A stretch of DNA of 64,000 nucleotides from Bradyrhizobium sp. NDS-1 (GTDB lineage Bacteria; Pseudomonadota; Alphaproteobacteria; Rhizobiales; Xanthobacteraceae). Below, piece after piece: positions 24,276-25,704 of this stretch. Positions within the stretch are counted from its first letter, which is position 1; the number at the start of each line of letters is the position of its first letter. The position numbers were made by a program, and so were the translations under genes. The notes beneath the pieces are model-generated. The model was given only the letters and a program-made list of their open reading frames with translations, had not been told where the DNA came from and searched no databases. The stretch is from positions 4,077,501 to 4,141,500 of the forward strand of contig NZ_CP136628.1 of assembly GCF_032918005.1 (NCBI RefSeq), read 5' to 3'.

Positions 24276-25472
24276 CTATGCCACCCGCCTTGCTGCGCCG
24301 GCCCTGGTCAGGATCCCGTCGAGACAATCGATCATCTCGGCGATCTCTGCCTTCCCGACGTTCAGCGCCGGCATGAAACGCAGGGTGTCGACCTGCGGGG
24401 CGTTGAGCAGCACGCCTTGCTCGAACGCCTGCGCGACGATGCCGGGCGCGATCGGCAGCTTGAGGTCCAGCGCGAGCAGAAGGCCGCGTCCCCGCACGCC
24501 GCCGAGGCCGTGCCGGGCCGAGACCTTCTGCAACTCGCTTTCGAGCAGCAGGCCGGTCTCGGTGACCTGCTTCAGGAAGTCCGGCTTGCCGACCTCCTCG
24601 AGCACCGCCAGCCCCGCCGCACACACGATCGGGTTGCCGTTGAACGTGCCGCCCTGATCGCCATGCTCGAAGCACGAGGCACGTTCGGTCGCGAGCAGGG
24701 CGGCGAGCGGCACGCCGCCGCCGATGCCCTTGCCGAGCGTCATGACGTCGGGCGAAATCCCGGTGTGCTCGTAGTGGAAGAGCTTGCCGGTCCGGCCTAT
24801 GCCGGTCTGGATCTCGTCGAAGATCAGCAGGAGGCCGTGCGCCTCAGTGAGTGCGCGCAGCTCCTGCAGGAACTGATCGCTCGCGGGCCACACGCCGGAC
24901 TCGCCCTGGATCGGTTCGAGCATCACGGCAACCGTGTTGTCGTTGATCAGATTCTTCACCGAGGCGATGTCGTTGAGCTTCGCCTTCTTGAAGCCGGCGA
25001 CCTTCGGCTCGAACAGCGGCTCGAACGCCTTCTTGCCCGAGGCCGACATCGTCGCCAGCGTCCGTCCGTGGAAGCCGCCCTCGAAGCTGATGATCTCGAA
25101 CGCGCCGCCCTTGTGCAGGCTGCCATATTTCCGCGCGAGCTTGATCGCGCCTTCGTTGGCTTCCGCGCCGGAATTGGCGAAGAACACCTGGTCGAAGGCA
25201 CTGTTCTCGACCAGTGCCTGCGCCAGCTTGAGGCTCGGCTCGTTGTAGAAGGCCGGGCTCGGCGTCAGCAGCCGCTTGGCCTGCGCGGTGAGCGCCTCGG
25301 CAATCGCCGGCGGCGAGTGGCCGAGACAATTCACGGCCCAGCCCTGCACGAAATCGAGATAGCGCTTGCGCCCGTCGTCCCAGAGGTAGGAGCCGGCGCC
25401 GCGGACGAACACGGCCTTTGGCCGTGCGGTGATGTCCATCAGCGCATCATACGGATGGGTGGCGGTGGTCAT
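24276..25472 (-). CDS. argD: Acetylornithine aminotransferase-type class III transaminase
   Basis: This PLP enzyme transfers an amino group from glutamate in the arginine pathway (N-acetylornithine step). The 398-residue protein has the class III fold signatures: [33 protein letters not shown], the PLP aspartate in [18 protein letters not shown], and the Schiff-base lysine in [22 protein letters not shown] lies 7 bases before the ATG at 25472. Aminotransferase paralogues are hard to separate by eye, but the arginine-rich leader peptide and attenuator just upstream independently tie this gene to arginine supply. It appears to be transcribed alone. Confidence 0.85.
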
Positions 25473-25508
25473 GTCGAACTCCTCTGGAGGCGGGTGGAAA
25501 GCGGGCGC

Positions 25509-25544
25509 AAAAGCAGAAAGGCCGCACCTTGCGGGTGCGGCCTT
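25509..25544 (-). terminator. Attenuator terminator in the argD leader
   Basis: On the minus strand AAGGCCGCACC (25534-25544 complement, upstream arm) and GGTGCGGCCTT (25518-25528 complement) form an 11-base-pair stem with a 5-base loop, followed by TCTGCTTTT. It lies after the stop of the arginine-rich leader peptide and before the argD ribosome-binding site, where an attenuator is expected. The upstream arm also carries CGCACCC, which can pair with GGGTGCG inside the leader coding region (25596-25602). Confidence 0.75.
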
Positions 25545-25573
25545 CTCGAAGACTTCAGCTGAATTTTAGTGGT

Positions 25574-25666
25574 TCAGCGGCGTCGTCGGACATGGCGCAC
25601 CCTCTCATCGTCGCGGGAGCGACGACGGAGCATTTCGGTGCGCTGATGGGTCCGAGCGTTGAACAT
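25574..25666 (-). CDS. Arginine-rich leader peptide of the argD attenuator
   Basis: A 30-residue peptide, MFNARTHQRTEMLRRRSRDD then ERVRHVRRRR, holds 12 arginines, including runs RRR at 14-16 and RRRR at 27-30 just before the TGA. The last run uses CGA CGA CGC CGC. It is followed at 30 bases by the attenuator hairpin and at about 100 bases by the argD start. A promoter-like sequence ends only a few bases before the ATG, so the ORF would be leaderless, as is the trp leader peptide of Sinorhizobium. Its likely role is to make translation rate report charged tRNA-Arg. Known: ribosome attenuation in general. Inferred: that it works here. Confidence 0.75.
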   Translation of the reverse strand: MFNARTHQRTEMLRRRSRDDERVRHVRRRR

Positions 25667-25674
25667 GGGGCGCG

Positions 25675-25704
25675 TCCCTACAGCCGAATGGCAGGGCTTG
25701 TCAA
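25675..25704 (-). promoter_or_regulatory. Promoter of the argD leader
   Basis: On the minus strand TTGACA (25704-25699) is followed after 18 bases by TAGGGA (25680-25675). Transcription starting 6-8 bases further would begin at or next to the leader ATG at 25666. The -35 is a perfect match; the -10 is weak. A tandem repeat containing CACGTG lies just upstream. Confidence 0.5.

Follow-up and report, generated by a model that had tools for sequence, protein, structure and literature searches.

Nucleotides 25704 to 25509 on the minus strand of the window, by which we mean the whole stretch of 64,000 nucleotides of Bradyrhizobium sp. NDS-1 that was analysed, very probably form a ribosome-mediated, arginine-specific transcription attenuator that controls argD. 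The observations behind this reading are the sequence, its conservation, the open frame, covariation, genomic association with the gene, and the recurrence of the architecture with unrelated leaders. From these we infer the start site, translation, stalling, termination and arginine response of the argD leader. The downstream gene was identified by a score of 644 bits against the NCBIfam equivalog NF002985 (cut-off 568), and further by Pfam Aminotran_3 and solved ArgD structures. The features, all on the minus strand, are as follows.

25678..25704, minus: promoter-like element, TTGACA (25704-25699), a 15-nt spacer and CTGTAG (25683-25678)
25574..25666, minus: leader ORF, MFNARTHQRTEMLRRRSRDDERVRHVRRRR followed by the stop, 30 codons, 12 of them Arg
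25619..25627, minus: central Arg run CGT CGT CGC, codons 14-16, the proposed sensor
25577..25588, minus: terminal Arg run CGA CGA CGC CGC, codons 27-30, read from the sequence
25587..25654, minus: predicted 1:2 hairpin, from the minimum free energy (MFE) fold and the alignment
25596..25602, minus: segment 2, GGGTGCG, putative antiterminator 5′ strand, exact complement of segment 3
25558..25578, minus: small hairpin from the alignment, GCTGA (25578-25574, contains the stop codon) with TCAGC (25562-25558)
25533..25539, minus: segment 3, CGCACCC, terminator 5′ arm and putative antiterminator 3′ strand
25509..25544, minus: intrinsic terminator AAGGCCGCACC-CGCAA-GGTGCGGCCTT with T-rich tail, from sequence, MFE fold and alignment
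25479..25485, minus: argD ribosome-binding site AGAGGAG, read from the sequence
24276..25472, minus: argD, acetylornithine transaminase, 398 aa, from NCBIfam, Pfam and structures

The first-pass annotation had described the Arg-rich ORF, its Arg runs, the 11-bp hairpin, the two complementary heptamers and the ribosome-binding site, and every coordinate was exact when checked against the sequence. The promoter-like element, the 1:2 hairpin that sequesters GGGTGCG and the small hairpin at the stop codon were additions to that description. In the window the promoter-like element ends 11 nt before the leader ATG, the terminator arms of 11 bp span 25544-25534 and 25528-25518 with the T-rich tail reaching 25509, and the argD ATG lies 3′ of the ribosome-binding site at 25472. 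When the 300 nt preceding argD were shuffled with dinucleotides preserved, 3 of 5000 shuffles contained an ATG ORF no longer than 40 aa with at least 12 Arg, and the fold of the leader region (z = -3.88) was equalled in stability by 0 of 200 shuffles. In the MFE fold, the antiterminator strand GGGTGCGC (25602-25595) is held by the upstream GCGCACC (25643-25637) within the long 1:2 hairpin, the outer stem of which pairs CGGAC (25654-25650) with GTCCG (25591-25587) and the inner stem CCGTCGTCGC (25628-25619) with GCGACGATG (25614-25606), and the terminator folds separately. This predicted arrangement, a 1:2 hairpin sequestering segment 2 next to a separate terminator, is the logic of an attenuator. 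Directly 5′ of the terminator, GTCTTCGAGAAGG at 25541-25553 is nearly invariant, reading mostly GTTTTCGAGAAGG in relatives, and its AGAA part is able to lengthen the terminator in many members.

In the switch that we propose, transcription would begin at the leader AUG or a few nucleotides before it. With charged tRNA-Arg plentiful, the ribosome would cross CGU CGU CGC and cover or pass segment 2; once it is past, the 1:2 hairpin could re-form behind it and the 3:4 terminator would halt transcription before argD. With charged tRNA-Arg scarce, the ribosome would stall at the central run, occupy strand 1 and free segment 2 (GGGUGCG), which would pair with segment 3 (CGCACCC) ahead of the synthesis of arm 4 and so let polymerase continue into argD. 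A ribosome-position model was applied to five leaders (L001, L005, L029, L027 and L124). Before arm 4 is made, the modelled probability of 2:3 pairing, P(2:3), was at least 0.92 in 5/5 leaders at every A-site position within the central Arg run, dropped between codons 17 and 20, and was 0 from codon 21. Thus, in the model, a stall at the central run favours the antiterminator and further travel prevents it, which agrees in all five leaders with the earlier proposal that stalling at CGT CGT CGC would free segment 2. At full length, with arm 4 made, P(2:3) in the model never exceeded 0.11 wherever the ribosome stood, and the terminator beat the 7-bp antiterminator throughout. Since the terminator always wins at equilibrium, the switch would have to be kinetic, and classical attenuators are generally held to be kinetic switches. 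With no ribosome, P(2:3) before arm 4 ranged from 0.01 (L005) to 0.94 (L001), so that basal termination in the absence of translation is not uniformly explained.

The hypothesis survived comparison with relatives, in which the ORF, the central Arg run, the hairpin and the antiterminator are kept with compensatory changes. In a first set of 110 loci, made up of the best 80 of 264 candidates and 30 genus orthologues with partly overlapping strains, an Arg-rich leader ORF of 26-31 aa and a hairpin were found upstream of ArgD in 110/110, and the leader was likewise present in all 24 added family loci. The full set of 134 loci, from which L153-L157 of the genus were left out, comprises 115 distinct leaders; L066 has no exact AAGGCC arm and was excluded from the spacer and duplex tables. 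All 115 distinct leaders have an ATG, a TGA and a single open frame of 28-31 codons, with 8-13 Arg each. Arg is invariant at columns 5, 9, 14, 15 and 24 (115/115) and occupies column 16 of the central run in 111/115. In the terminal run, Arg was found at column 27 in 114, column 28 in 108, column 29 in 88 and column 30 in 105 of the 115. Of the two Arg runs pointed out at first pass, the central one is therefore conserved (columns 14 and 15 in every leader), and the terminal CGA CGA CGC CGC, which was considered as a sensor and rejected, probably does not serve as one, because in the model a ribosome there already blocks the antiterminator and because columns 28-30 are less conserved than 14-15. 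A permissive promoter pattern, TTGAC followed by TGTA, AGTA, TATA or CGTA, matched in 115/115 distinct leaders, with a spacer of 15 in 114. The box lies 8-12 nt from the ATG (11 nt in 97/115), which leaves almost no room for a 5′ UTR, as in rhizobial trpL, and implies one of a few nucleotides or none; the leader ORF is probably nearly leaderless.

Over the 115 distinct leaders, pN/pS of the leader peptide was 0.97 overall, and the peptide as a whole shows no purifying selection, in contrast to the Arg columns and the RNA. On this value we set aside a functional-peptide reading, in which the leader would encode an Arg-rich micropeptide acting in trans, as the part of PMC7298713 consulted describes for peTrpL of the rhizobial trp attenuator. 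Such a peptide is extremely unlikely here, given that the non-Arg columns drift, that the peptides before distant ArgD genes are unrelated in sequence, and that strong matches in the family sample are always attached to argD. The near-neutral ratio would also suit a conserved unit consisting of an RNA or a constitutive terminator, acting as an insulator or stable small RNA, with the Arg ORF arising incidentally from GC-rich CGN repeats of the stems. Since many of the conserved codons do lie in stems, constraint on the nucleotides could be enough to preserve them. We consider this very unlikely, since the ATG-TGA frame stays open in 115/115 while the spacer from stop to terminator, 25-33 nt long, varies by single bases; further evidence on both sides of it is given below.

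Covariation was analysed in an alignment of 47 leaders of the major subtype, which excludes the window's subtype, in which the heptamer is offset by one base. In the terminated structure 97.9% of cells are paired and three pairs are changed on both sides; its terminator helix is paired in 99.3% of cells, with compensatory changes at one pair. In the antiterminated structure 94.3% of cells are paired, and 96.0% in the 2:3 helix. The covariation scores of both structures were above 500/500 shuffles, which leave the relatedness of the leaders in place, and that of the terminated structure was also above all slid controls. The number of antiterminator pairs changed on both sides was 1, a value reached by 340/500 shuffles, because only one antiterminator column varies usefully. 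One column, 125, takes part in both helices: it covaries with column 143 on the terminator side (3:4) and column 55 on the antiterminator side (2:3). The 125-143 pairs are A-U in 38 leaders, G-C in 4, U-A in 2, G-U in 1 and other in 2, and the 125-55 pairs are U-A in 35, C-G in 3, G-U in 2, U-G in 2, G-C in 1 and other in 4. Seven leaders with G or U at column 125 and the standard hairpin (L027, L106, L110, L119, L128, L129 and L130) all pair on both sides, four of them via a G-U wobble. The hairpin of L107 is rearranged and does not fit at column 125, and L144, L026 and L023 are without the covarying pair. The column-125 changes sit in at least two branches of the ArgD tree.

The outer stem of the 1:2 hairpin is invariant; the inner stem shows compensation, as U-A in L107 and as G-C replaced by A-U in three leaders. 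The stop-codon hairpin GCTGA:TCAGC is kept in an otherwise variable spacer, with 91.9% of cells paired in an alignment where some rows are locally misaligned. As for the 7-bp antiterminator put forward in the first-pass annotation, its seven pairs form a continuous helix in the window's subtype, and the other main subtype needs a one-base bulge to form it. Swapping the arms of the 2:3 duplex gave mixed results. L027, L106, L110, L119 and L130 favour their own arm over the common one by 1.3-4.5 kcal/mol; L128 and L129 gain 1.6 with their own arm, yet two other arms are better; L107 gains 3.2, yet one other arm is better; and the own arm of L030 is 4.6 worse than the common arm. Native 2:3 energies run from -8.9 (L023, weak) and -10.2 (L030) to -17.6.

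A covariance-model search detected the leader above 90 bits in 36 of 296 family genomes, the next best match being 39.8 bits, and this ArgD was found at E <=1e-120 in 37 of the 296. The 36 leader genomes all fall within the 37 ArgD genomes, the leader adjoins the gene by coordinates in 36/36, and of the 296 genomes, none that lacks this ArgD has a leader match above 90 bits. The host genome, a single contig of 7.65 Mb, contains one strong leader match of 147 bits; the next, of 26.6 bits, was taken as chance rather than as a second copy, as were 17 weaker family matches (at most 39.8 bits), three of which were inspected and had no ArgD match in the 5-kb stretch. The order sample of 397 genomes gave no match above 32.8 bits beyond the family itself. 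The 37th ArgD genome (G095, locus L139; ArgD 63-64% identical) has an unrelated leader, MQYASTNARRRRRARRFSAGAWDMRTR followed by a stop, with five consecutive Arg, TTGACA just upstream and a GC-rich terminator differing from the family's. This locus was inspected after the attenuator hypothesis had been formed, and hence served as its test. Either the attenuator was replaced in G095, or gene and attenuator were transferred together.

A decayed copy of the leader was also observed on Bradyrhizobium plasmids, in AP014659.1 (L185:3924-4115) and NZ_CP086138.1 (L186:3924-4115), the two records inspected of five that matched. Both keep remnants of promoter and terminator, and by eye the ATG is gone and the Arg run broken; within about 4 kb on either record (8-kb stretches) there is no argD match. 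The decay fits selection only where argD is present, and the loss of ATG and Arg run from an argD-less relic speaks against the RNA or constitutive-terminator explanation.

The arginine-attenuator architecture noticed in the window was found to recur, with unrelated sequence, before distant ArgD relatives. In a class sample of 337 genomes, four more relatives of 61-70% identity all have an upstream ATG ORF with an Arg run, three of the four with a terminator by a simple rule, which is insensitive (it detects 5/9 terminators in family loci L119-L127). In a phylum sample of 329 genomes, 22 relatives outside the class (53-63%) include 8 with an Arg-run ORF and 7 with a terminator. Counting G095, an RRR run was found in 13/27 distant loci and a run with terminator in 11/27, where shuffles lead one to expect 0.49 and 0.01, related rows among these loci not being independent. 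Control genes, after removal of overlapping ORFs and of 45 upstream regions holding known argD leaders, gave 3/174 and 1/174 (Fisher vs distant loci, 1e-10 and 3.5e-10); the uncleaned control, with overlapping ORFs and argD's own leader still in, gave 26/276 and 8/276. This recurrence of RRR runs with unrelated RNA likewise argues against an RNA or constitutive terminator as the conserved unit. No match to the family covariance model exceeded 15.1 bits in the 31 loci covered, which contain the distant relatives of ArgD as well as other arg genes; the support for the distant cases is therefore architectural and not one of homology. Their 2:3 antiterminators, 12 of which were tested, were not individually better than shuffles at 0.01 (p 0.02 to 0.59), and gave a combined p of 0.01 with related rows included.

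This ArgD type is rare in the class sample (5/337 genomes at E <=1e-105, host included) and common in a family outside the class, f250 (175/200 genomes). From the 175 f250 genomes with a match, 48 new loci were taken, 28 as best matches and 20 chosen to spread over genera, and an RRR leader was present in 22 of the 48, all 22 with a terminator. Outside the class, both samples together have unrelated Arg-run leaders in 30/70 ArgD relatives. No RRR-run leader was found in 14/27 distant loci and 26/48 f250 loci; 11 of these 26 belong to one genus, g517, with genomes near 2 Mb, and several of the 26 keep RR and the same hairpin by eye (e.g. L203, L204 and L207). In f250 a GCCGCTGGCT-like segment recurs after the run and can pair with the AGCCACGGC arm in most of 19 leaders, a count made without a shuffle control. 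Of the f222 loci L163, L164, L168 and L176, an RRRR run is confined to L176. The remaining three show MRRA close to the corresponding position and retain a TCTGTG segment repeating part of the terminator 3′ arm.

In the ArgD tree, the family copies and L149 (70% identical, from another family of the class) form one group, which adjoins the outside-class copies together with L151; the G095 copy lies elsewhere. Leader presence is clustered on this tree, with seven changes needed and at least four of them forced by well-supported branches, a pattern suggesting that attenuator and gene may have moved together.

The 13 distant runs hold 49 Arg codons (24 CGC, 14 CGA, 10 CGT and 1 CGG), and CGA opens 12 of the 13. 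For comparison, in 41 long frames of the window, not of the distant genomes, CGG makes up 23% and CGA 8% of Arg codons. A single tRNA-Arg isoacceptor reads CGA, CGC and CGT, and translation of CGA is slow in some bacteria. The frequent opening CGA could thus also indicate a ribosome-mediated device that senses something other than arginine supply, such as slow poly-Arg translation, antibiotics, ornithine or polyamines. We regard this as highly unlikely: the downstream gene is always of the ArgD type, which makes an arginine precursor, in loci that were fetched through ArgD, and amino-acid attenuators are characterised by runs of codons for the end product. A precedent in its favour is the speF leader orf34 of Salmonella, where, in the text of PMC6386406 that was consulted, consecutive Arg codons and ribosome pausing set downstream expression and control polyamine synthesis. 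orf34 resembles the argD leader in the consecutive Arg codons and differs in acting via Rho and RNase G, not an intrinsic terminator, as far as that text goes.

The leader before argD may already have been catalogued elsewhere. Of 20 loci searched, three have a match to Rfam RF02884 (BcKCsr7) that covers the argD leader (L175:1270-1423, L177:2751-2902 and L178:1281-1447; 93-164 bits), the only three above gathering, and an Rfam scan of the whole window gave no match, BcKCsr7 included. Because these three f250 loci match a Burkholderia Rfam family, we take f250 to be Burkholderiaceae. BcKCsr7 is catalogued as a Burkholderia cenocepacia small RNA, and in a review Bc_KC_sr7 shares a row with nc5U30 and RIT34 and is marked as expressed, the searched text making no link to argD or attenuation (PMC10987360). 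It is thus probable that the terminated leader was observed earlier, as an RNA, in Burkholderia. A catalogued small RNA is also what one would expect if the unit were conserved merely as an RNA; if the ribosome-mediated attenuator is correct, this orphan Rfam small RNA gains a likely function.

Amino-acid attenuators are textbook examples of control for trp, his, leu, ilv, phe and thr, and arginine biosynthesis is taught as being repressor-controlled by ArgR. Like those systems, the argD leader combines end-product codons in a leader ORF, mutually exclusive predicted hairpins and an intrinsic terminator before the gene; it differs in that arginine is the amino acid it would sense. The proposed argD attenuator would be a known mechanism with a new specificity and target. 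No report of attenuation of arginine biosynthesis in bacteria was found in the passages of open full-text papers that the searches covered. An alphaproteobacterial comparison is rnTrpL/trpL of Sinorhizobium meliloti, for which the consulted part of PMC10117765 describes a leaderless leader ORF and an attenuator that yields a small RNA. Both are alphaproteobacterial leader ORFs, that of argD probably nearly leaderless, and rnTrpL differs in that it senses Trp and lies upstream of trpE (PMC10117765, same part). In Pseudomonas, too, a leader peptide precedes carA(B), which serves arginine and pyrimidine synthesis; the text seen of PMC4997734 ties possible attenuation there to pyrimidines, has arginine acting at the transcriptional level and, in contrast to the argD leader, mentions no Arg-run leader. 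A wider reading, which we offer tentatively as a possibility that is rather less likely to hold than to fail, is that arginine attenuation is an old control which goes with this ArgD type in different classes of Pseudomonadota (presumably Beta- as well as Alphaproteobacteria), rewriting its leader and keeping CGA/CGC/CGT runs, and that its terminated product (BcKCsr7) could be a dual-function regulator like rnTrpL.

If the proposed attenuator is true, arginine joins the list of attenuated pathways, and does so in a genome without an ArgR above the Pfam cut-off (8/14 control genomes pass that cut-off). It would also be a compact, probably nearly leaderless system of a plant symbiont, whose sensor, antiterminator and terminator are testable by few mutations. 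Another ArgD about 43-44% identical is encoded elsewhere in the host genome, directly before an argF-like frame that we take to be argF from its sequence, and the argD behind the leader is thus the additional, second ArgD of this genome. Full-length orthologues of it (at least 78%) are present in 33/36 genus genomes, host included, with a fragment in one more. When argD1-argF, argG, argC and argJ of the host were inspected, no ATG ORF with an RRR run was found before argD1, argC or argJ. By the same rule an ORF with an RRR run, MPAYRLRRRLFGRKTDPEPSV, ends 94 nt 5′ of argG within a longer frame, and by eye is taken to be the end of a preceding gene rather than a leader. The sole argC match in the host genome (L183, G000:C1:4396631-4397458) is below the TIGR01850 cut-off, so the host may have a different argC subtype. 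L051 (JAUEPE010000026.1) has a Bradyrhizobium-like argD locus with 92% identity under the label Frankia sp. RB7; the assembly is probably misnamed.
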